Shown here: positions 19,926-36,380 of the stretch, in pieces
Numbering within the stretch: the first letter of the stretch is position 1
Layout of the letters: every line of letters begins with the position of its first letter
Made by a program: the position numbers and the translations under genes
Assembly (NCBI GenBank): GCA_026391295.1
Contig: JAPLDS010000028.1
Location: 7,020 to 54,259 of the forward strand
Origin: Bacteroidia bacterium
Lineage (GTDB): Bacteria; Bacteroidota; Bacteroidia; Bacteroidales; Prolixibacteraceae
DNA length: 47,240 bases
Reading direction: 5' to 3'
Notes under the pieces: model-generated
What the model was told of the DNA's origin: nothing
Database searches by the model: none
What the model saw: the letters and a program-made list of their open reading frames with translations, nothing else

Positions 19926-21005
19926 ATGAATAAAATATCAGATGTTGTAAAGCCTGGCGTAGTAACCGGTACTGATTTGCAGTATGTTTTTCAAGTTGCA
20001 AAAGCCAATGGATTTGCTATTCCTGCCGTTAACGTAGTTGGATCTTCAACAGTTAATGCAGTTATAGAGGCTGCAGTAGCAGTCAATGCACCAGTTATGA
20101 TTCAATTTTCTAACGGTGGTGCTGCTTTTAATGCAGGTAAGGGTTTGAAACTTGAAGGTCAGCAAGCTGCTATCTTAGGTGCCATTGCCGGAGCTAAACA
20201 TATACATACCTTAGCTGAAGCTTATGGTGCATATGTTATCTTGCATACCGATCATGCTGCAAAAAAATTACTTCCTTGGATAGATGGTCTTTTAGATGCT
20301 AGTGAAAAACATTTTGCTGAAACAGGTAAACCACTTTTCAGTTCTCATATGTTAGACCTTTCAGAGGAGCCAATTGAAGAGAATATCGAGATTAGCAAAC
20401 GTTATTTAGAGCGTATGTCTAAAATTGGAATGACTCTTGAAATAGAACTTGGTATTACGGGTGGTGAAGAAGATGGCGTTGACAACAGCGATGTTGATAA
20501 TAGCCTACTTTATACTCAGCCAGAACATGTTTGTTATGCTTACGAAGAGCTTAGCAAAGTGTCTCCTAACTTTACCGTTGCAGCTTCATTTGGTAACGTT
20601 CACGGAGTTTACAAACCAGGAAACGTTAAACTTGCCCCAGTGATTTTGAAAAATTCACAAGATTATATCAAAGCTAAACATGGCATGAGTGATTCTCATC
20701 CAGTTAACTTTGTATTCCACGGTGGATCAGGTTCTTCACATGCAGAAATTCGTGAAGCAATTGGTTATGGTGTAATTAAAATGAATATCGATACCGATAC
20801 TCAATGGGCTTATTGGGATGGCGTAAGAGGCTTTGAGGCTGCTAATCGTCCATACTTACAAGGTCAAATTGGTAACCCAGAAGGTGCTGAAAAACCAAAT
20901 AAGAAATACTACGATCCTCGCGTTTGGTTGCGTAAAGGTGAAGAGGCTCTTATCGCTCGTTTAAAACAAGCTTTCGATGACTTAAACGCTATCAATAGCC
21001 TATAA
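19926..21005 (+). CDS. fbaA: class II fructose-bisphosphate aldolase
   Basis: Zinc-dependent aldolase cleaving fructose-1,6-bisphosphate to DHAP and glyceraldehyde-3-phosphate; cytosolic. The 359-residue length is the FbaA type. Zinc and catalytic residues are in ILHTDHAAKK (about residues 106-115), FGNVHGVYKPGN (His ligand) and NFVFHGGSGSS (phosphate-binding loop with His). ELGITGGEEDGVDN is the conserved class II signature region. It has its own promoter and terminator, so it is probably monocistronic and strongly expressed. Confidence 0.96.
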   Translation: MNKISDVVKPGVVTGTDLQYVFQVAKANGFAIPAVNVVGSSTVNAVIEAAVAVNAPVMIQFSNGGAAFNAGKGLKLEGQQAAILGAIAGAKHIHTLAEAYGAYVILHTDHAAKKLLPWIDGLLDASEKHFAETGKPLFSSHMLDLSEEPIEENIEISKRYLERMSKIGMTLEIELGITGGEEDGVDNSDVDNSLLYTQPEHVCYAYEELSKVSPNFTVAASFGNVHGVYKPGNVKLAPVILKNSQDYIKAKHGMSDSHPVNFVFHGGSGSSHAEIREAIGYGVIKMNIDTDTQWAYWDGVRGFEAANRPYLQGQIGNPEGAEKPNKKYYDPRVWLRKGEEALIARLKQAFDDLNAINSL

Positions 21006-26559: not shown

Positions 26560-27834
26560 TTATAGATTCTCTGAGTGTTCGAGAAGATAGGTCTCAGCTT
26601 CCGTACTCCATAACCCTTTATGACGATCACAGATCTTAGCTAGTTCCGCATAAGTCGGATTGGTTTGTCCTTTCGCTGCAAAATCTACGATAGGTGTAAG
26701 CGGCATCTCCACATGGTTGTAGATTAATTTTTTTCCACCTGGAATCTCAGGAAGATGCAGCGTCGCATCAATAACTGCGTTAAGTCCACCAACATGAGTT
26801 ACAAGTCCTGCAGGATCTAATCCAGCCGACATAAGTTTGATTGCCTCTTTCATGTCGTCGGTATTTCCACCACTTGTACCAACAATATGGGTGTACTCGT
26901 AATGCACGTTGTAAAAGTTCAAGGTCGCTTTGAAATTAGGATCCGATGGTCCAGCAAAGAAGTTCAGACAGCCATCGAAGGCTAATAAAGCATCCGCTTG
27001 TTCAACGACAGGAGCGACTGGTGCAAAAACGAAAATGTCGTTATACCCTGTGCCGCCAGAGATCGCTCTAAGCTCTTCAATTACATTGGTGAATTTTGAA
27101 GTATTAATATATTGAAGATCAATTCCTCTTGAGGCTGCAAAGTCAACCGTATAAAGGGTAGCAGCACGATCTAATCGTGTTTGATCAATATCGGTTACTA
27201 CCAATAAACCAGGCTTGCGGTCTTCGCGATGAAGCACATAATTAATAGCCGCAAGACCCATCGGTCCAACGCCAGCCAATAAAGCCATCTTGCCTCCATC
27301 GACAATCTCCATCTGATGCACATACGACCCTGGAGTGGTATGGTAATTGGCATGAATTGCCCCAATAACACAGGAGAGTGGTTCAGATAATGAGGCCGGA
27401 TAGAATCCTTCACCGGTAAACGGCAGTAAACAATCGAGCTCCATCACCTCATTGGGGATGACCACATAGGTTGCATCACCTCCAATGTGCTGGTATGAAT
27501 AGCCTGGTGCACCCATTACGCCAACTGGACTGTCGGCATAGTTAAGGGCTGGCTGTATAGAGAATTTATCTCCAACTTTAAATTTGTCTTTCCATTTTGA
27601 TCCAACTTCAATAAGAGTGCCTGCAAATTCATGTCCAATAATTACAGGTTTAACATCACAATCGTTTGGAATACGTTTGTGGTCGGATCCTTGACTTGCA
27701 GCTTTGTATGATGACATACATAAGCTATCGCAAATTACTTTGGCAAGTATCTCGTTATCTTTGATCTGTGGCAATTCAAACTCTTCTAAGCGTAAATCTT
27801 TCTTGCCATATAATCTTACTGCGCGTGTCTTCAT
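26560..27834 (-). CDS. zinc-dependent MDR dehydrogenase, L-sorbose-1-phosphate reductase-like
   Basis: A medium-chain dehydrogenase/reductase of 424 residues. The catalytic zinc region is recognisable (ICDSLCMSSYK with Cys near residue 38, VIIGHEFAGTLIEVGSKW with the His-Glu pair), and the Rossmann coenzyme motif is ALLAGVGPMGLAAINYVL. The four-cysteine structural zinc lobe is absent. The overall pattern resembles SorE-type enzymes that interconvert L-sorbose-1-phosphate and glucitol-6-phosphate; the real substrate is unknown. It is the last gene of the leftward operon that begins with E2 at 35446 and starts 35 nt after the SDR gene's stop, so it probably acts on the same compound as its neighbours. 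Confidence 0.85.
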   Translation of the reverse strand: MKTRAVRLYGKKDLRLEEFELPQIKDNEILAKVICDSLCMSSYKAASQGSDHKRIPNDCDVKPVIIGHEFAGTLIEVGSKWKDKFKVGDKFSIQPALNYADSPVGVMGAPGYSYQHIGGDATYVVIPNEVMELDCLLPFTGEGFYPASLSEPLSCVIGAIHANYHTTPGSYVHQMEIVDGGKMALLAGVGPMGLAAINYVLHREDRKPGLLVVTDIDQTRLDRAATLYTVDFAASRGIDLQYINTSKFTNVIEELRAISGGTGYNDIFVFAPVAPVVEQADALLAFDGCLNFFAGPSDPNFKATLNFYNVHYEYTHIVGTSGGNTDDMKEAIKLMSAGLDPAGLVTHVGGLNAVIDATLHLPEIPGGKKLIYNHVEMPLTPIVDFAAKGQTNPTYAELAKICDRHKGLWSTEAETYLLEHSENL

Positions 27835-27869
27835 TGATATGTTGTTATTAAGTTAAGCTCTTGTGATAT

Positions 27870-29054
27870 TTAATTTAACATGTTTTGTCCTCCAGTAACT
27901 GGAATGGCTTGACCGGTCTCGTATTCTTGCTCAATCACATAGAATATCGCTCTGACCACATCGATCACCCGACAACCTCTTCCTGCTGGTACTTGTGCTT
28001 CGTAAAAAGCTTTGACATCTTCAATTTCTTTTGCACCAGGCACTTTGCCTGCTCTGAGGTATTGCACAAATAAACCCTTCTCTGGATCGCTCCATAATGG
28101 ACCTTCGAAGAAGTTTCCTGGACAGATTGAATTGACTTTAATCTTATTGGGCATTAGTTCCATTGCAAAAGATTGCGTTAATCCAATGCCGCCAAACTTT
28201 CCGCCCGCATAGGCGAAATTCCGATTGCTCCCTTTTAGTCCAGACTTGGAGTTGATCTGAATGATATCGGTGAAATAGTTCTCTTTATATTTTGATTGCG
28301 CCTTCATTACGACTGAGGCATATTTCGCACAAAGAAAATAGCCGTTGTAGTTAACATCAGTCATCAATGCAAACGTTTCGGGTGTCATCTCGTCAAGGCC
28401 ACCTGCACGCAGAATCCCCGCATTGCTTATGATCGCATCTAACCCTCCGAAATGTTTTACTGTCGCTGCAATCATTAGCTCAACAGATTCTGCATTTGAT
28501 ACATTGACAGGGGTAAAAAAGGCTTGATTTGTCTGATTATTCGAATTTAAGGCATCCGCCATAGCAGTGCCAGTTTGTTCATTGAGGTCCGCGATAACCA
28601 CATTAGCCCCCTGCGCATAAAGCAATTCGGCTATACCTCCTCCAAAACCTTGGGCTCCACCTGTGACTAGAATGATTTTTTGTTGAACTCGACCATTGAT
28701 ATTTTTCAGCTCTTTCGGTGATGCACCCAAAAGCACATCTAAGTCATATGCATTGTCTGCAATAGCAATGAGTCCAATTCCTTTTAAAAGAATATAGTCA
28801 GGTTGATTGTTATTAGATGTTGACCATGCTGATAATTTAACTGTTAAATCATCCAATATTTCAGTTGGATCAATTGTCTCGTCGACAACAAGAATACCGG
28901 ATCCTTTTTTTATAAAAGAGATTGCTCTAAGGTCTTCTTCGTCTTCGACTGCAACAAGTTCTGAACGCTGATCAAAGCGAACAACCTTAATTGCCGCTGT
29001 TGAGGTTAACATCCGTATCGCAGGAATAACGCGTGTAATAATCGGATTGGTCAT
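27870..29054 (-). CDS. short-chain dehydrogenase with aldolase-like N-terminal remnant
   Basis: A 394-residue protein in two parts. Residues about 135-394 form a classical SDR: cofactor motif VTGGAQGFGGGIAELLYAQG, NNAG-equivalent ISNAGILRAGG, catalytic Ser-Tyr-Lys region with INSKSG and YAGGKFG, and C-terminal PVTGGQNML. Residues 1-130 contain a stretch (YILLKGIGLIAIADNAYD) like the region just before the SDR in bifunctional rhamnulose-1-phosphate aldolase/dehydrogenase proteins, but too short to be a full class II aldolase and without its zinc histidines. I infer a relict or recognition domain. The coding sequence starts 3 nt after the PHP gene's stop, so this start is likely real. Confidence 0.82.
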   Translation of the reverse strand: MTNPIITRVIPAIRMLTSTAAIKVVRFDQRSELVAVEDEEDLRAISFIKKGSGILVVDETIDPTEILDDLTVKLSAWSTSNNNQPDYILLKGIGLIAIADNAYDLDVLLGASPKELKNINGRVQQKIILVTGGAQGFGGGIAELLYAQGANVVIADLNEQTGTAMADALNSNNQTNQAFFTPVNVSNAESVELMIAATVKHFGGLDAIISNAGILRAGGLDEMTPETFALMTDVNYNGYFLCAKYASVVMKAQSKYKENYFTDIIQINSKSGLKGSNRNFAYAGGKFGGIGLTQSFAMELMPNKIKVNSICPGNFFEGPLWSDPEKGLFVQYLRAGKVPGAKEIEDVKAFYEAQVPAGRGCRVIDVVRAIFYVIEQEYETGQAIPVTGGQNMLN

Positions 29055-29057
29055 AGC

Positions 29058-30287
29058 TTAATTTTTAATCAGGTATTCGATAAGTGCTTTCCCGATTTTT
29101 GCAAATTCATCTCTTTTTTCAAGGGTTGGTTTGCCATCGATCGAAACATATCCTTTCCCTTCAGTCGCCATTAGGTATTGATGTGCTGCCGTAATACAAG
29201 CCCCTTCGTAATTTATCTCAAGTAAGAGCGGTGAAAGGGGTGTGCTGTGTCTTGCAAATAGCTCAATTGGCTCCATCGATGGTGTATTGTGCTCCGATCC
29301 GAAGGTTACAACTAAACCGTTGTTTTTAAAATATGAGGCATATTCCTCCAGTACAGCAAGGCTATTCCGAGTGGTAATAAATTCAATAGAGCAGATATTT
29401 CGTTCTCTTAGAATCTCTAGTACTCGCTCTTTAGGGGCTTCGAAATCGGTGAAATTACCATTCGCATCATCGGCTAAGAAGGGGTAGGTAGGTATTCCTC
29501 CAGCTTGCAAGAGCATTTCGCAAACTTCTGTCATATCAAGAAAAGCTTCTGGACTCTCTGCAATAAATGCAGCACCACCAGCTTTTAATAGATTTCCTCT
29601 GATCTCATTTTCAATAGCTGCAAAATTGTCAATGCCAGACTTTAAATCTTTGCCACCAAAGATCGAATTGTAGATCTCTTTTTGTTCTTCCGGTGTCTGA
29701 TAGTGAGCAGAAATCTTTTCGCGTAACGCCTTGGCAAGATGACGTTCTCTTACCATCCCCTTGGTTAACTCCGTCTGAATGGTTTTATAATCAAGAGAAA
29801 ATTTGATCTTCTTCTCAAGCAAAACTTCATTTAGCTTGGTACACATCTGCTCCACTTGAAGATTTGTTTCGTGAAGCACTGAGGCTAATTTCGAAGCGAA
29901 TGGTTCCTTTAGTTGAGGTGGAAAGCTAAGACCTTTACCGCTTAAATAGGTCCGTCCAGGATTGTTTGGATCGTTAACTTTGATCCCTGCAGACTGGTCG
30001 TCGCGGTTAAGACTAATATATTCGATGTTAAATAGCGGAAAAATCTTCCGATCTGCGCAACCTGCGGCCCATTCTGAATACCCATTCGTGGTGTAGAAAT
30101 CATTAATTCCCACCACTTTTACGTTTTCAGCTACGGCCATGTCAAGCGCCTGTGGTATATTCTGAAAAGCACTGAATGAATGAGGGGTGTGCATATGTGC
30201 ATTCACAAGCCTTACCTTCCCATCTCCGTGTTTCTCGAACCAGTTTAGTAATTCATCTTTTTTTGGAAAAATGCTCCAGAAACTCAT
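29058..30287 (-). CDS. PHP-domain metal-dependent hydrolase/phosphoesterase-like protein
   Basis: A 409-residue protein with the PHP first motif NAHMHTPHSFSAFQNIP (His-x-His, about residues 29-45) and later candidate metal ligands VVGINDFYTTNGY and VTFGSEHNTPSMEP. A helical insertion (about residues 130-230) separates the PHP halves. PHP proteins hydrolyse phosphate esters using two or three metal ions; histidinol phosphatase and polymerase PHP domains are known relatives, but this one does not match HisJ closely. Its place between E1 and the two sugar-type dehydrogenases suggests dephosphorylation or hydrolysis of a pathway intermediate. The substrate is not known. Confidence 0.75.
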   Translation of the reverse strand: MSFWSIFPKKDELLNWFEKHGDGKVRLVNAHMHTPHSFSAFQNIPQALDMAVAENVKVVGINDFYTTNGYSEWAAGCADRKIFPLFNIEYISLNRDDQSAGIKVNDPNNPGRTYLSGKGLSFPPQLKEPFASKLASVLHETNLQVEQMCTKLNEVLLEKKIKFSLDYKTIQTELTKGMVRERHLAKALREKISAHYQTPEEQKEIYNSIFGGKDLKSGIDNFAAIENEIRGNLLKAGGAAFIAESPEAFLDMTEVCEMLLQAGGIPTYPFLADDANGNFTDFEAPKERVLEILRERNICSIEFITTRNSLAVLEEYASYFKNNGLVVTFGSEHNTPSMEPIELFARHSTPLSPLLLEINYEGACITAAHQYLMATEGKGYVSIDGKPTLEKRDEFAKIGKALIEYLIKN

Positions 30288-30352
30288 ACGTTATTATTTA
30301 TTGACAAATGAAAATCCATTGATTAACTTCTGATTGGCTACTTCTAGTTGAA

Positions 30353-32690
30353 TTAAACGCCAAGTTTAGCTCTGCGAATTTGTTCTGAATCGCTGAAATT
30401 CTGGTTTGAGATATGACCTTTTAGCGGTACTATTTTTTCATGTATCGCATCGATAAACCAGTCTGGCTGTGGGAAGAAAGCTTCTTCTAGCTCGTAAGCT
30501 GGAGTAATCCAGTTTCTTGATCCGACCACAACTGGAGGTGCATCTAGATAATCAAAGGCAAGTTCAGTGATGTTGCGAGCTAACTCATTTAAGAATGATC
30601 CACGCGAAGTGGCATCACCTGAGATGATAATTCGTCCAGTCTTTTTAACCGATGCAATAACTTGTTCATAGTTAAATGGAACAAGTGAGCGAGCATCGAT
30701 AACTTCAGCCGACATGTTGTATTTCTCTTTTGTGGAACTGTTCTCCGATATCATAAACACGTTGACTTTCAAAGAATATAACAGGATCAGTACCTTGTAG
30801 AGCGCTATTCATTAATCCTTTGGCATCGTATGGAGTGACTGGGAAAACAACTTTTAAACCTGGAATATGTGCGACTAATGAGGTCCAGTCTTGTGAATGC
30901 TGAGCTCCGTATTTTGAACCTACAGAGACACGCATAACAACTGGCATTTTTAGCATATTGCCACTCATGGCTTGCCATTTTGGAAGTTGGTTGAACACTT
31001 CGTCACCACAACGACCAAGGAAATCGCAATACATAATCTCAGGTATCACACGTCCACCACACATTGCATATCCAATTGCAGTTCCAATGATAGATGCTTC
31101 AGAAATTGGCGAATTGAAAAGTCTGTTATAAGGAAGGGCCTCCGTAAGACCACGATAAACGGCAAATGCACCACCCCAGTCACGGTTTTCTTCACCGTAA
31201 GCGATCAAGGTAGGGTCTTTATAGAATCGGTCTACAATGGCATCAAAGATTCCATCGCGTAACTGATATTGTTTCATTTTCGAGAAGGGTTTTCCTTCTG
31301 CATCAAAAGCAAATCGCTCTTTTTTCGAGATTTGGATAACCCTTGGGTTTTCTTCCATTGGGTGATTGACCTCTGGTACACGATCGTCCATCTTATCGAC
31401 AGACTGATTCGAGAAGATCATCTCACCAATCTGTTCTGGTCGTTGCTTGATGTCCATCCTCGGTGACACCTCATCATTGATAGAGAGTTTTAGCATCTCA
31501 ACCATGATCTCTTTGATATCAGTCCAGATGGTGTCTAACTCTTTTTGAGTCGTAATCTTCGCATTAACGATAGTATGACCAAAGGTTGCAATACTATCTT
31601 GTGCTTGCCATGCTTCAATCTCTTCTTTTGAACGGTATGATGATGCATCAGAAGGGGAGTGGCCGCTATAGCGATAAGTCAGGACTTCAAGAAGCACTGG
31701 CCCTTTTTTCTCTTCGATCAGTTTTCTTTTTCGACGATAAGCATCGATAACCGCAAGTGGATTGTAACCATCTACACGCTCAGCATGCATCTGGTCTGGG
31801 TTAACACCGGCTCCAATGCGTGCCACTTTGCCAAATCCCATCGTCTCACCACAGGTTTGTCCACCCATTCCATATTGGTTGTTCATGACATTGAAAATGA
31901 CGGGTAGACCGCCTTTCATGTCACCTTCCCATAGCTCAGTAAACTGATCCATGGCGGCGAAGGACAATCCTTCCCAAACTGGACCACATGCCATAGAAGC
32001 ATCTCCGATATTGGCTACAACCATTCCTGGTTTACGATTGACTTTTTTATAAAGAGCTGCTCCGACAGAAATATCGCCGCTACCACCTACGATGGCATTG
32101 TTTGGATAAACTCCAAAAGGGGTAAAGAAGGCATGCATACTGCCGCCTAATCCTTTATTGAAGCCTGTCTCACGCGCAAATATCTCAGCTAAGGTGCCAT
32201 AGATTAAAAAGCGACGACCAAGCTCTTTTGTTGTTCCTTTGAAATCTTTTTTAACCACATTAAGAACTGTGCCATTAAAGAAAGTCTCCATGATCTGCAT
32301 TAGATCAGCATCGCTTAGCTTTTGAATGGCACTTAATCCTTTGGCTAGAATCTCGCCATGACTACGATGAGATCCGAAAATAAAATCTTCAACATCAAGT
32401 AAATAAGCCATTCCTACCGCAGCTGCCTCTTGTCCTGCAGAGAGATGGGCAGGTCCAGGATGGTCATAAGGTACACCACTGTACTCTCCAGTAGTCTTGA
32501 TAAGATTTAGCATGGTCTCAAATTCGCGGATTACAACCATGTCGTGGTAGATGCGCACTAGATCATCATTAGAGAAATTGTCTTTCTCTTGTGCGATCGT
32601 TTTCGCATATTGGTTTACCGGAATTGGCTTAAACGTAATCTCGCTTGCTTTTCGTGCTAAGCTTGGGTCAATGAATTGAACTTTAGGCAT
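30353..32690 (-). pseudogene. fused 2-oxoacid dehydrogenase E1 alpha/beta subunit, interrupted by internal deletion and frameshift
   Basis: Thiamine-diphosphate E1 component with alpha and beta subunits in one chain, of the acetoin/branched-chain/pyruvate type. The alpha part (about residues 1-400) includes ThDP-region IGDASMACGPVWEG and NNQYGMGGQT; the beta part begins KMKQYQLRDGIFDAIVDRFY. The first frame (30705-32690) runs through FFESQRVYDIGEQFH and then ends with ten unrelated residues. The C-terminal part (KEKYNMSAEVIDARS onward, to 30353) continues in another frame. Family members have about 40 residues between these segments, so about 120 nt is missing near 30725-30737 with a net frame change. 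It may be a real inactivation or an assembly fault; the intact E2 and E3 next to it favour the latter. Confidence 0.85.
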
Positions 32691-32733
32691 ATTTGCTTGT
32701 AATTGATGTTGATAGGTTGGATAATGGACTTAA

Positions 32734-34098
32734 TTAAAAAGAGAAAATTGTTTCTTTGAAGATCTCTGAAATGGTTGGATGAGGGAAAATAACTTCTTCC
32801 ATCTCTTTGATTGTCATCTCCATCTCGATGGCCATCGATGCGCCATAGATAATCTCGCCAGAAGGATTTCCTAAGATGTGAACTCCTAAAACTTCACCGT
32901 ATTTAGCTCCGATAAGAACCTTGCAAAGTCCACTTCCAGTTTCGTTTTCTGCAATAAATCGACCTGCATAAGCTAATGGCAATTTCGATACTTTGTATTC
33001 AATGCCTTTTGCTTTAGCTGCTTCTTCAGTTAGTCCAACACCTGAGAATTCAGGATTCGTATAGACAACGCCTGGGATCGCATTGTAACGCATCTGATCA
33101 GAACGGCCAGTTAAATTATTTACCACTACTTCGCCTTCGCGACTTGCGGTATGTGCTAATAATGAGAATCCAGTGACATCACCTGCTGCGAAGACATTTG
33201 GTACATTGGTACGCATCTTTTCGTCAACTTTAATTCCGCCACGGTCTAATTCAACACCGATATTTTCAAGTCCAAATCCTGATGTATTTGGTTTGCGACC
33301 TACGCTGACAAGGATTTTTTCACCTTTGATAGATTCTTTTTTACCATCTTTCTCGAAGATCACTTCGTTGCCCTTAACTTCCGTAACTTTTGAAGATAAG
33401 TTGAAAACGATTCCCTTCTGGGTGTAGTGCTTACGAAGCATCTCACTCATCTCGCGATCCATTCCTGTAAGGATTTCGTCAAGCATCTCGATGATGGTTA
33501 CTTGAGTGCCAAGGCTATTGTAGAAACTTGCAAATTCAAGACCAATAACTCCACCGCCAATGATGACAAGAGATTCAGGTCTGTCTTTTAATTGCAGGAT
33601 TTCTCTATTGGTAAGGATTAGATCACCTGGTTTTCCAAGTCCTGGAATTGGAGGCATAAATGCTTCAGATCCAGTGCAGATTAATAGGTTAGTTGCTAAA
33701 ATCTCTTCTTTCCCTGCCGTTATTGCAATCCCTGCAGCTGAGCGTCCTTTGATTAAAGCTGAGTCTTTGATAACCTCTACTTTGTGCTCTTTCATTTTCA
33801 TGCCAACACCGCCGACAAGTTTCTTCACCACTTTCTCTTTGCGAGCCATCATTTTGGTGAAGTCGAACGTTACGTTTGACGTTTCAACGCCATATTTACT
33901 TGCGCTTAAGGCATTGTCGTATAGTTTGGCACTGTAAAGCAAAGTTTTTGTTGGAATACATCCTTCATTAAGACATACACCGCCTAGTTCGCTTTTTTCA
34001 ATCAATACAACTTTAAGCCCTTTTTTGCCAGCTCTCTCAGCGGCAACATAACCGGCAGGTCCCCCGCCAATAATTGCTAAATCGAATGTTTTACTCAT
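32734..34098 (-). CDS. lpdA: dihydrolipoyl dehydrogenase (E3)
   Basis: Flavoprotein that reoxidises the dihydrolipoyl groups of E2 using NAD+. FAD motif LAIIGGGPAGYVAAERAG, redox disulfide GGVCLNEGCIPTKTLL, NAD motif LVIIGGGVIGLEFASFYNSLG, FAD motif VPNVFAAGDVTG, and the C-terminal active-site HPTISEIF (the His-Pro of the catalytic dyad region). The frame stays open to 34128, but ATG 34098 is preceded at good spacing by AGGAGA and starts the conserved domain, giving 454 residues. It begins 19 nt after the E2 stop. Confidence 0.95.
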   Translation of the reverse strand: MSKTFDLAIIGGGPAGYVAAERAGKKGLKVVLIEKSELGGVCLNEGCIPTKTLLYSAKLYDNALSASKYGVETSNVTFDFTKMMARKEKVVKKLVGGVGMKMKEHKVEVIKDSALIKGRSAAGIAITAGKEEILATNLLICTGSEAFMPPIPGLGKPGDLILTNREILQLKDRPESLVIIGGGVIGLEFASFYNSLGTQVTIIEMLDEILTGMDREMSEMLRKHYTQKGIVFNLSSKVTEVKGNEVIFEKDGKKESIKGEKILVSVGRKPNTSGFGLENIGVELDRGGIKVDEKMRTNVPNVFAAGDVTGFSLLAHTASREGEVVVNNLTGRSDQMRYNAIPGVVYTNPEFSGVGLTEEAAKAKGIEYKVSKLPLAYAGRFIAENETGSGLCKVLIGAKYGEVLGVHILGNPSGEIIYGASMAIEMEMTIKEMEEVIFPHPTISEIFKETIFSF

Positions 34099-34117
34099 TT
34101 TGGTGTCTCCTATTTTT

Positions 34118-35446
34118 TTAAAGTTCAAATTCTAAATTTTCAATCTCTGTAGCTATTTGTTTTAAAAAGCGGGTAGCCTCGCCTCCATCAAGTGCTTGAT
34201 GATCGTAGGTTAAGCTTAAGCCGATATAAGGTACGAAACCATAAGCTCCGTCGCCTAAATCTTTTGGTCGTGGCACAATTGTGTTGACCCCAAGAATCCC
34301 TACCTGAGGAAGGTTGATAACTGGTGTGAACATTTCAACGCCATAGTTGCCTAGGTTTGATACGGTAAATGAGGCGGCTTCAGATGAGAGTAACTCTGGA
34401 TCAATCGCCCCTTTCCGACAAGCGGCAGCAACGTCACGCATATTATTTGATAGTTCTTGAATCGTAAGATTACCTGCATTCCGAATCGCTGGAACCATTA
34501 ACCCACGGTCTGTATCGACAGCTATTCCAAGACTTATATTGTTAAAGTATTTGACGCTATCTCCTAAGAAATGAGCGTTTACTTGAGGATATTGTTTCAA
34601 AGATTTAATCACCGAATAACAAACCATATCATTAATGGTGATGTTTACAGGGTAACCGCCATCGGTAGCTTTTTTGATTTTCCTGCGCCATTCTAACATT
34701 CTGCGTGCATCGGCTCCAAGGTGATGTGTGAGCTGAGCTGAATTTTGCAGAGACTGATGCATCGCTTTGGCAATTAGCTTGCGGATATTTGATAGTTTCT
34801 TTATTTCGAAGTCAGTTCCCGAAACTTGATTCTGTTGAGTTAAATCTTTCGATGTGATAGATCCGCCAAGGCCGCTTCCAATGGTTGAACCTTGCAGATG
34901 TTCTTGTCCCGCTTTCTTCTTGGCCAACGGGGTCGACTTTGGCTGTTTTGCTAATATGGCTTGAATATCTTGCTCGATAATTCTTCCGTTGGGTCCCGAC
35001 CCGCGCACACTATTTAGATTGATCCCCTCTTCGTCGGCCAGAATACGAGCTCTAGGTGAAACAGCTTCTGAACTTGAACTATTCGAAGATTCATTAGTTG
35101 CTATTGCAGCGGTTGCTTCTTCTTTAGTTGTAGATGAAACGGTTGGTTCAGTTGCTTCTACTTTAGCGGGTGCAGCTCCTCCAGGGTCAAAGCCGTCTGT
35201 TGATTCGCCCGGTTCACCAATGACGCATACATTGGTTAAGACAGGAACTTCGTCCCCAGTATTATAAAACACAGCTAAGAGAACTCCGTCGACAGCAGCT
35301 TCTTCTTCAAATGAAGCCTTGTCTGTTTCGTAGGCAAATAGGATATCGCCTTTTTTTACTTGGTCACCTTTATTCTTGTTCCACTCAGTAATAATGCAGC
35401 TTTCAACAGATTGCCCCTGCTTAGGCATGATAACGACAACGGCCAT
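34118..35446 (-). CDS. 2-oxoacid dehydrogenase E2 (dihydrolipoamide acyltransferase)
   Basis: Core acyltransferase of a pyruvate, branched-chain or acetoin dehydrogenase complex. One N-terminal lipoyl domain (about residues 1-78) carries the lipoyl lysine in FAYETDKASFEEEA. A Ser/Thr/Ala-rich linker (about 90-125) leads to the E1/E3-binding domain (VSPRARILADEEGINLNSVR, then GSGPNGRIIEQDI). A second short copy of that motif (STIGSGLGGSITSKDL) follows. The catalytic domain (about 205-442) has the active-site motif SLTYDHQALDGGEATRF. The acyl group is not predictable from sequence. It is the first gene of the operon, 26 nt after the promoter -7 box. Confidence 0.93.
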   Translation of the reverse strand: MAVVVIMPKQGQSVESCIITEWNKNKGDQVKKGDILFAYETDKASFEEEAAVDGVLLAVFYNTGDEVPVLTNVCVIGEPGESTDGFDPGGAAPAKVEATEPTVSSTTKEEATAAIATNESSNSSSSEAVSPRARILADEEGINLNSVRGSGPNGRIIEQDIQAILAKQPKSTPLAKKKAGQEHLQGSTIGSGLGGSITSKDLTQQNQVSGTDFEIKKLSNIRKLIAKAMHQSLQNSAQLTHHLGADARRMLEWRRKIKKATDGGYPVNITINDMVCYSVIKSLKQYPQVNAHFLGDSVKYFNNISLGIAVDTDRGLMVPAIRNAGNLTIQELSNNMRDVAAACRKGAIDPELLSSEAASFTVSNLGNYGVEMFTPVINLPQVGILGVNTIVPRPKDLGDGAYGFVPYIGLSLTYDHQALDGGEATRFLKQIATEIENLEFEL

Positions 35447-35463
35447 AATTAAAATATTTTCCG

Positions 35464-35496
35464 CAAAGATATTTTATTTCACTTGTATTTACAAGT
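35464..35496 (-). promoter_or_regulatory. promoter and overlapping palindromic operator of the E2-E3-E1-PHP-SDR-MDR operon
   Basis: On the minus strand, -7 TATCTTTG (35464-35471) and a -33 CTTG (35492-35495) are 20 nt apart. The -33 box lies inside a perfect 16-bp palindrome, ACTTGTATTTACAAGT (35481-35496; 7-bp arms, 2-bp centre). TGTA-N2-TACA fits operator shapes known for GntR/HutC proteins, and the GntR gene is divergent from here. I infer repression of the operon by that regulator, relieved by a ligand bound to its UTRA domain. Confidence 0.65.
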
Positions 35497-35584
35497 AAAT
35501 AGTATTTTAATTTTAATCAAAGGGTTGTTTGTGTTGCAATATTCAGGTTTATAGTAATTTGTAGTTGTTTTGTGTGCCGTGTCA

Positions 35585-35629
35585 TGTAAATACAAATTTT
35601 GTTTTTGTAAATTTATTTATCTATTTTTG
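35585..35629 (+). promoter_or_regulatory. gntR promoter with a second TGTA-N2-TACA site
   Basis: -33 TTTG at 35598-35601 and -7 TATTTTTG at 35622-35629, spaced 20 nt, fit the Bacteroidota consensus. Just upstream, TGTAAATACA (35585-35594) repeats the core of the operon operator, reading as its reverse complement. It could let the regulator control its own gene. Confidence 0.55.
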
Positions 35630-35657
35630 CACTTCGTACCCTTAAAAATTTTGTGTC

Positions 35658-36380
35658 GTGTTAAAACAGCAAGAGACTTCAATTCCACAACATCGTAAAG
35701 TTTATGAGATCCTTCGGTCTCATATTACCGGAGGTGTGTTTGGGGAAGGTGACTTTCTCCCTTCTGAGAATGAGCTGTGCACCGTGCATCATGTTACCCG
35801 ACCAACCATTCGAAAAGCGCTCGATCGTTTGACCAATGAAGGCTATATCGTGCGGCATCAAGGTAAAGGGAGTATCGTGAAGGGTTCGCCAAAAGGGGTG
35901 GGAATCTTATCTATGACTGGTACCACATCGGCTATTGGACAAGATAACTTAACAACAACGATCATCATAAAGCCAGAGATTCGGACTTGGAATCAGGCGT
36001 TTACTTTTCCCCTTACGAAGGCAGAAATTGAATCTGGGTGCGTCTATATCGAGCGATTACGTTTGGTAAATGGCAAGCCTGTGTTTTATGATATTACCAT
36101 GATCCCGAATGTGAACCTTCCCCGGTTTACCTCGCGGAATTTTGAGAATAAGTCGCTATTTGACATCCTTCGGAAGCATTACCATATTGAGGTTCGGGGA
36201 GGTGAGCAACAACTGCTTGCCATTGTTGCTGACGAAAAAATGAAGGGCTATTTCAATGTTGGGCAAGGTCATCCCATACTTCAACTAAATCGTAAAATTG
36301 AGACTAGCCGTGCTGGATTTTATATCTACAGTCAGGTTTTTTGCAACACCGATGAATATGTGCTATACGGCACATTCTAA
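35658..36380 (+). CDS. GntR-family transcriptional regulator (HutC/UTRA type)
   Basis: A 240-residue regulator. The N-terminal GntR winged helix (about residues 10-75) reads HRKVYEILRSHITGGVFGEG, SENELCTVHHVTRPTIRKAL and LTNEGYIVRHQGKGS. The C-terminal UTRA effector-binding domain (about 95-238) has IESGCVYIERLRLVNGKPVF and ends YSQVFCNTDEYVLYGTF. UTRA domains bind small metabolites, often sugar phosphates or amino-acid derivatives. Start is GTG at 35658, after a good promoter. Its divergent position and the shared palindromes make it the likely regulator of the operon at 26560-35446. Confidence 0.92.
   Translation: MLKQQETSIPQHRKVYEILRSHITGGVFGEGDFLPSENELCTVHHVTRPTIRKALDRLTNEGYIVRHQGKGSIVKGSPKGVGILSMTGTTSAIGQDNLTTTIIIKPEIRTWNQAFTFPLTKAEIESGCVYIERLRLVNGKPVFYDITMIPNVNLPRFTSRNFENKSLFDILRKHYHIEVRGGEQQLLAIVADEKMKGYFNVGQGHPILQLNRKIETSRAGFYIYSQVFCNTDEYVLYGTF

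Follow-up and report, generated by a model that had tools for sequence, protein, structure and literature searches.

The phosphorylating routes for L-rhamnose and L-fucose both yield dihydroxyacetone phosphate (DHAP) and L-lactaldehyde, and in the bacterial routes known to us the lactaldehyde ends as propanediol or lactate. A different fate for this carbon is considered here for an operon in a 47,240-nucleotide stretch of DNA (the window) from a Bacteroidia bacterium of the Prolixibacteraceae (assembly GCA_026391295.1, contig JAPLDS010000028.1), whose draft genome measures 2.9 Mb at 97% completeness. Six co-oriented minus-strand genes with short gaps encode the E2, E3 and E1 components of a dehydrogenase complex, a protein of the PHP fold, a short-chain dehydrogenase (SDR) and a zinc-dependent medium-chain dehydrogenase (MDR), and a GntR/UTRA regulator gene lies divergently beside them. 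This gene set and its tie to 6-deoxyhexose (rhamnose/fucose) catabolism are well supported. As a tentative reading, which we hold with less than even confidence, the operon may represent the lower half of a 6-deoxyhexose route that leads to acetyl-CoA without lactate, pyruvate or 1,2-propanediol.

Several described systems share parts of this module. The RhaEW pathway, as presented in the main text of its report (Rodionova et al., 2013; PMC3870299), resembles it in rhamnose context and in RhaA, an FGGY kinase and a RhaE-type class II aldolase, which in distant members of the module is fused to the SDR. In contrast, the module SDR appears SrlD-like rather than RhaW-like and has lost the aldolase domain in the lineage of the window, and the module adds a SorE-like MDR, E1-E2-E3, the PHP protein and the GntR regulator; the main text of PMC3870299 mentions neither GntR nor lipoamide. 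The enterobacterial sor and srl systems (SorE with SorD or SrlD) offer the same pair of reaction types: the MDR is 51% identical to SorE, and the SDR is nearest to SrlD (32-37%) among the proteins compared. However, no phosphotransferase system (PTS) was recognised near the module, its SDR is just 25% identical to SorD, and the pair is coupled to an acyl-CoA-forming complex.

The acetoin dehydrogenase complex (Aco) likewise combines a thiamine-diphosphate E1 with a lipoyl E2 and an E3, and in a tree with long branches the module E1 groups on the acetoin side, but it is a fused protein of 822 amino acids, 32% identical to an Enterococcus E1 encoded beside 2,3-butanediol dehydrogenase, and its partner E2 has a 2-oxoacid acyltransferase fold. 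Fused E1s on Rhizobium and Agrobacterium plasmids (e.g., RL_RS25565 of pRL8) also stand in a sugar context, with a kinase, a lipoyl-domain protein and a SorC-type regulator, whereas their operons have a separate lipoyl protein and an alpha/beta hydrolase in place of E2, and the annotated neighbours shown include no PHP, SorE or SDR. Finally, the RNase AM/cv1693 branch of the PHP family shares with the module protein its fold, an HxH motif and an R..H..A helix region, while the module protein has DF(Y/F) in place of DHD and replaces other PHP metal ligands, in all 34 members.

Conservation of the gene set and its links to rhamnose and fucose genes

Scanning the PHP protein against genome contigs yielded 26 loci, and the order E2-E3-E1-PHP-SDR-MDR recurs in Bacteroidales. 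PHP, SDR and MDR stand together in 23 of the 26 loci (L043, L045 and L049 end just after or inside the next gene), and E1 lies directly upstream of PHP in 23, the exceptions being L043, L044 and L045. Among 61 whole genomes, comprising the source genome and 60 relatives, PHP was present in 34. All 34 also have an E1 of at least 72% identity, which was found in only 1 of the 27 genomes without PHP, and other E1-like matches reached at most 39%. In the exceptional genome (G013) the contig ends just after E1, and in G008 and G017 the GntR and E2 genes (with E3 in G008) lie at contig ends; some PHP-negative genomes may thus represent assembly gaps. Because E1 and PHP lie on different contigs in several genomes (e.g., G022, G025, G026 and G034), their link is not one of mere adjacency. 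A sample of 296 genomes from the phylum had PHP in the source genome only, and no match to it was found in a plasmid collection.

The first-pass annotation had grouped the six genes as an uncharacterised catabolic unit, and held that a trio of PHP, SDR and MDR not conserved elsewhere, or a complex that is simply housekeeping, would speak against this view. The trio is kept with E1 across Bacteroidales (23/26 loci) and E1 tracks PHP, so the proposed unit stands. Between SDR and MDR, some loci have a small open reading frame of four-helix-bundle type as judged by eye (L028:10635-10994, L029:12312-12875 and L063:1769-2131).

The tie to 6-deoxyhexoses is seen both in co-occurrence and in gene neighbourhoods. 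RhaA was found in 44 of the 61 genomes (32/34 with PHP and 12/27 without), and FucI matches of at least 100 bits in 31/34 PHP genomes and 8/27 others, although two of these matches (G001, G020) lie in frames of about 475 amino acids that may not encode fucose isomerase. One or the other is present in all 34 PHP genomes compared with 12/27 others, a contrast that is weak in the source organism's own family alone (30/30 vs. 6/7). The cultured relatives Natronoflexus pectinivorans (L039) and Alkalitalea saponilacus (L040) have the genes for E2, E3, E1, PHP, a fused aldolase/SDR, MDR, RhaT, RhaA and an FGGY kinase one after another on a single strand, and in G043 rhaA, a free aldolase, RhaT and a rhamnulokinase-like gene share a contig with the module. 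Just past GntR, L035/L036 have genes for a FucP-like transporter, a kinase and a protein resembling fructose-6-phosphate aldolase (FSA), and L048 has genes for a FucP-like MFS protein, a class II aldolase and a protein resembling lactaldehyde reductase; alpha-L-fucosidases are close to the module in L052 and L067. The 96% complete genome G035 has no RhaA match, and an FGGY kinase and FucI lie on the contig of its GntR-E2 pair. These links point to rhamnose and fucose rather than to the free polyol, ketose or sorbose previously suggested as substrate, and the earlier statement that the unit has no transporter or kinase is true of the window only; in relatives the module has RhaT, FucP-like and FGGY-kinase genes next to it. 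In several genomes the module or the rhamnose genes are found together with a gene for a 431-amino-acid protein in which two stretches are of class II aldolase type (L040:19334-20629 and relatives; cluster c19).

The regulator gene (35658-36380, plus strand; all positions are those of the window) encodes a HutC-type protein with GntR (62.6 bits) and UTRA (66.5 bits) domains, both over the Pfam cut-offs, and a divergent GntR gene stands beside E2 in relatives as well. The gap between E2 and GntR holds a palindromic operator, ACTTGTATTTACAAGT (ACTTGTA-NN-TACAAGT; 35481-35496), which is the sole match in the window at up to one mismatch (mean expected 0.01) and recurs at this stringency in 26 of 29 GntR-E2 intergenic stretches of the loci examined. 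Adjoining it is TATCTTTG (35464-35471, minus strand), a candidate -7 promoter element for E2 that was recognised from TAnnTTTG, which we take to be the Bacteroidota -7 consensus; a sigma-70-type scan of the window was uninformative on promoters (24 sites vs. 23.1 in shuffles). The six leftward genes, the GntR regulator and the operator of the first-pass annotation are all real, although it missed an interruption of E1 that is described below.

Across the source genome the perfect site is unique, and matches at two mismatches numbered 10, compared with 25 in a reversed-pattern control; a wider regulon in this genome was therefore rejected. In G042, three sites were found at up to one mismatch: the perfect one precedes E2, a one-mismatch site precedes a rhamnulokinase-like (rhaB-like) gene followed by rhaA, in a gap common to a divergent gene, and another one-mismatch site precedes a two-gene unit whose second gene encodes a GH78 alpha-L-rhamnosidase. 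A paralogous GntR/UTRA gene in L233-L239, mostly beside a DeoC-like gene recognised by eye, has a related operator, ACTTGTACGTACAAGT (2/7 with one mismatch), and CG-centred sites in relatives were set aside since they stand at this paralogue.

The dehydrogenases and the E1-E2-E3 complex

In distant members of the module the SDR forms the C-terminal half of a protein of 650-660 amino acids that also has a RhaE-like class II aldolase domain. This domain was matched in 40 of the 61 genomes, 13 times in frames of 657-702 amino acids and 23 times in frames of 370-401 amino acids, the remainder being two matches cut by contig ends and two weak ones. The free-standing aldolase adjoins rhaA in five genomes (G019, G024, G029, G033 and G036), while in the source genome it lies on contig C81 and does not adjoin rhaA; two PHP genomes, G005 and G010, gave no match to the aldolase. 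The window itself encodes a class II fructose-bisphosphate aldolase (19926-21005; 69% identity to E. coli FbaA) about 5.5 kb past the end of the operon.

The SDR of the window (27870-29054, minus strand) has only adh_short matches in Pfam and no aldolase domain, whereas the fused relative in L039 has both Aldolase_II (72 bits) and adh_short. Its SDR domain starts at about residue 122, the preceding stretch of about 120 amino acids aligning with the end of the relatives' aldolase part; residues 5-393 align to 220-653 of the fused L039 protein, with 65% identity to the SDR domain of the latter. The best match among 208 NCBIfam families was to NF009050, sorbitol-6-phosphate dehydrogenase (211 bits, below the cut-off of 307), and identities were 35-37% to plasmid-borne SrlDs, 32.5% (129 bits) to E. 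coli SrlD, 25% (80 bits) to SorD and 26% (77 bits) to Rhizobium RhaW. By these scores there is moderate support for an SrlD-like rather than RhaW-like SDR. This assignment is strengthened by the motifs QINSKSG..GS and KFGG.GLTQS, because they are common to the window SDR and E. coli SrlD and absent from Rhizobium RhaW; the motifs were chosen after the alignment had been inspected.

The MDR (26560-27834, minus strand) is, by homology, a ketose-1-phosphate reductase-like enzyme of the SorE/YggP type, with 51.1% identity over its full length to a sorE-annotated Klebsiella plasmid protein and 54% to E. coli YggP, which bears out its description as resembling sorbose-phosphate reductase. The yggP gene of E. 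coli (L189:6180-7457) lies between cmtA and yggF, near tktA, epd and fbaA. An inositol route with an IolM-like MDR was rejected, the match to NF041097 scoring 65 bits against a cut-off of 450, and SorE fitting far better.

Within the complex, E2 (34118-35446, minus strand) has the lipoyl, E3-binding and catalytic domains of a dihydrolipoyl acyltransferase (PF00364, PF02817 and PF00198), and E3 (32734-34128, minus strand) passed the TIGR01350 cut-off for dihydrolipoyl dehydrogenase (514 vs. 408.8 bits). The fused alpha/beta E1 is interrupted: a 661-amino-acid frame with E1_dh and Transket_pyr domains (30705-32690, minus strand) stops at 30705, and the rest of the protein, with the transketolase C domain (PF02780), is in another frame (30353-30772, minus strand). 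Relative to L024 and L025, in which E1 is intact at 822 amino acids (L024 being 97.6% identical across the aligned E1 stretch), the window copy is short of 131 nucleotides in its C-terminal half, resulting in a frameshift; this deletion may represent either a true lesion or an assembly error. An apparent split of E1 in L037 (G001) was traced to a run of N and is no lesion.

The module E1 is 52-53% identical, over 97-100% of its length, to fused E1s on plasmids of Rhizobium, Agrobacterium and Pleomorphomonas, whose genes have sugar transporters, kinases, a mannitol dehydrogenase, lipA and SorC-type regulators as neighbours; other E1s, from a sample of 60 records spread over 734, reached at most 35.5%. 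In a 19-row tree, the rhizobial plasmid E1s join the module E1s with full support on the acetoin-enzyme side, in a long-branched clade of their own that is split (100/98) from two E1s of the branched-chain 2-oxoacid dehydrogenase type and one labelled as pyruvate dehydrogenase (PDH). The previous description of a 2-oxoacid/acetoin-type complex is supported. The sugar-uptake operons around the plasmid-borne E1 genes (L182-L185, from Rhizobium johnstonii, Agrobacterium tumefaciens, Pleomorphomonas and Rhizobium sp.) also encode an alpha/beta hydrolase and a protein with a lipoyl domain, and individual records add lipA, mannitol dehydrogenase or xylulokinase; these E1s too may cleave 1-deoxyketose phosphates. 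Methylglyoxal and hydroxyacetone were considered as direct E1 substrates, with no evidence found for either.

A more ordinary explanation would be that the aldolase-SDR is RhaEW, i.e., L-rhamnulose-1-phosphate aldolase and L-lactaldehyde dehydrogenase, that lactate is converted to pyruvate, and that E1-E2-E3 is a co-transcribed PDH, with side jobs for MDR and PHP. According to the main text of PMC3870299, Chloroflexus and Bacillus have a characterised RhaEW, and its occurrence in Bacteroidetes is also reported. The fused relative gave 220.8 bits (window SDR, 126 bits) to TIGR02632, and E1 gave 191 and 136 bits to PDH_E1_alph_y and PDH_E1_alph_x, although these scores miss the respective cut-offs of 567.75, 394 and 411, those for E1 having been obtained with the broken window copy, in which the alpha part is whole. 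Pyruvate:ferredoxin oxidoreductase (PFOR) was over cut-off in 56 of the 61 genomes and 33 of the 34 with PHP, so that PDH is not needed there; it was weakly matched in G002, G007, G037 and G046 and just under cut-off in G047. As G007 has the module and such a weak PFOR match, a housekeeping PDH role of the complex could apply in that genome, but as a general account housekeeping PDH was rejected, since close E1 homologues track PHP and occur in only 35 of 61 genomes. The relationship of E1 to sugar-operon E1s rather than to the others sampled, and the higher score of the window SDR with SrlD than with RhaW, also argue against the ordinary explanation, which leaves the SorE-like MDR and PHP unexplained; no lactate dehydrogenase was recognised among the neighbour genes, which were read by eye with no dedicated search. 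On balance, we consider it unlikely.

Much more improbable still is a sorbose, polyol or acetoin operon, in which SorE and SrlD would convert L-sorbose-1-phosphate to fructose-6-phosphate while the complex cleaves acetoin. These two enzymes natively form that pair, and both the resemblance of MDR to SorE and the position of E1 in the tree are consistent with this idea. However, reading of the gene neighbourhoods brought up nothing recognisable as a sorbose/glucitol PTS, acetoin regulator or butanediol dehydrogenase, the module is linked to rhamnose and fucose genes, and acetoin and sorbose have no need of each other's enzymes.

The PHP-fold protein and a possible route to acetyl-CoA

The PHP protein (29058-30287, minus strand) had no Pfam match at E<=0.001, PF02811 included, and no NCBIfam match. 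Its AlphaFold2 model is confident (pLDDT 93), and the best Foldseek match was RNase AM (E 2.6e-12, TM 0.50/0.69, the value by query length being about 0.5), with cv1693 also grouped; direct alignment to E. coli RNase AM with hhalign was weak (probability 1.6%, E 0.032), placing HxH on HxH and DHD on DF(Y/F), while correspondences of the C-terminal motifs were made by eye. HxH is kept in the 34 aligned members and DHD is DF(Y/F) in every one, most of what we take to be the canonical PHP metal ligands are replaced throughout, and the family has invariants of its own, such as K118, H183, H333 and H369. The sequences and the model suggest that this is probably a remodelled PHP fold and not a classical phosphoesterase. 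A nucleotide phosphatase, as the fold of cv1693 and RNase AM might imply, was rejected because the ligands are not kept, and the dephosphorylating or hydrolysing role assigned by the first-pass annotation does not fit for the same reason. The protein is instead a candidate for a C3/C4 stereo-inversion or an aldol step.

From gene linkage, co-occurrence, domain fusion, the operator and family relationships, we infer a scheme whose reactions, stereochemistry and direction of each dehydrogenase are all conditional. RhaA and RhaB (or FucI and a kinase), with a class II aldolase that is RhaE-like and free-standing in the source genome, would form DHAP and L-lactaldehyde. Aldolases with the stereochemistry of fructose-bisphosphate aldolase give 6-deoxy-L-sorbose-1-phosphate with L-lactaldehyde, and an FbaA-type aldolase or the remodelled PHP protein could rejoin the two products with the opposite stereochemistry. 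That an aldolase can join DHAP and lactaldehyde to a 6-deoxyhexose is documented in an excerpt of PMC6749365, citing Wong (1983). The SorE-like MDR would then reduce C2 to give 1-deoxy-D-glucitol-6-phosphate, and the SrlD-like SDR would oxidise the opposite end, so that 1-deoxy-D-fructose-6-phosphate is formed; this methyl ketone carries an alpha-hydroxyl and is hence an analogue of acetoin. The native stereochemistry of SorE and SrlD would give these glucitol and fructose products. E1-E2-E3 would cleave 1-deoxy-D-fructose-6-phosphate as acetoin dehydrogenase cleaves acetoin, yielding acetyl-CoA, NADH and D-erythrose-4-phosphate, and the GntR/UTRA protein, acting at ACTTGTANNTACAAGT, would keep the operon repressed until a sugar-phosphate effector is present. 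A search of the open-access literature found no description of this route, subscription journals being mostly outside that search.

On one side of the module or the other, 11 of 46 loci have an FSA-like gene (L046 and L062 are the same contig, counted twice). It gave 201 bits to TIGR00875, below the cut-off of 245.95, and its product aligns with E. coli FsaA at the positions of Gln59 and Tyr131, keeping FSA-type residues. FSA takes hydroxyacetone as donor, as stated in an excerpt of PMC7767278; its presence in some operons therefore fits a 1-deoxyketose phosphate, and the specificities of SorE, SrlD and FSA meet on the sorbose/glucitol/fructose-phosphate series.

A rival is a direct route with no aldol detour: MDR would reduce L-rhamnulose-1-phosphate (or L-fuculose-1-phosphate), SDR would oxidise C5, the complex would release acetyl-CoA and D-threose-4-phosphate or L-erythrose-4-phosphate, and PHP would epimerise or isomerise the tetrose. 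It requires no extra aldolase, gives a job to the always-present PHP protein, and suits both the absence of an aldolase domain from the SDR of the window lineage and the link of the module to rhaA and rhaB. Against this, many members have the aldolase fused to the SDR and others keep it free-standing, the specificities of SorE, SrlD and FSA suit the sorbose/glucitol/fructose series and not rhamnulose, the two epimeric ketose phosphates (from rhamnose and, in G035, fucose) share only DHAP and L-lactaldehyde, and the tetrose products would require inversion. The direct route is judged improbable.

Several observations weigh against the proposed route via 1-deoxy-D-fructose-6-phosphate. E1 is broken in this very window, and the PHP protein is without a proven place in the scheme. 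G032 has an aldolase-SDR and MDR and no PHP or close E1 match, a HAD phosphatase gene for which the scheme has no need lies between SDR and MDR at L067:12003-12659 and L173:2158-2901 (G043 and G032), and the FSA-like gene is found neither in the window nor in most loci. The co-occurrence counts take no account of shared ancestry, the E1 tree has long branches, SrlD resembles RhaW (31.5%, 112 bits) about as much as it does the window SDR (32.5%, 129 bits), and 51% identity to SorE does not prove the substrate of the MDR. As to regulation, rhaT-rhaA, the rhamnulokinase-like gene and the free aldolase are on other contigs of the source genome and without operator, none of 12 stretches at PHP loci without an upstream E1 had the operator at up to two mismatches, and the two extra sites in G042 are suggestive only, the reversed control of that genome giving one site.

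The scheme in its fullest form, in which the methyl end of rhamnose or fucose is rebuilt to 1-deoxy-D-fructose-6-phosphate and cut to acetyl-CoA and erythrose-4-phosphate with no carbon lost, a PHP fold has turned aldolase or epimerase, and rhizobia make parallel use of E1 on sugar ketols, is a doubtful prospect. If true, the conversion of lactaldehyde carbon to acetyl-CoA and erythrose-4-phosphate without CO2 release would be a new route, a widespread and unassigned clade of fused E1s would gain a substrate, and a PHP protein would have a role other than phosphate hydrolysis. Such a route would also bear on how freshwater and sediment Bacteroidales degrade sugars derived from pectin and fucan.

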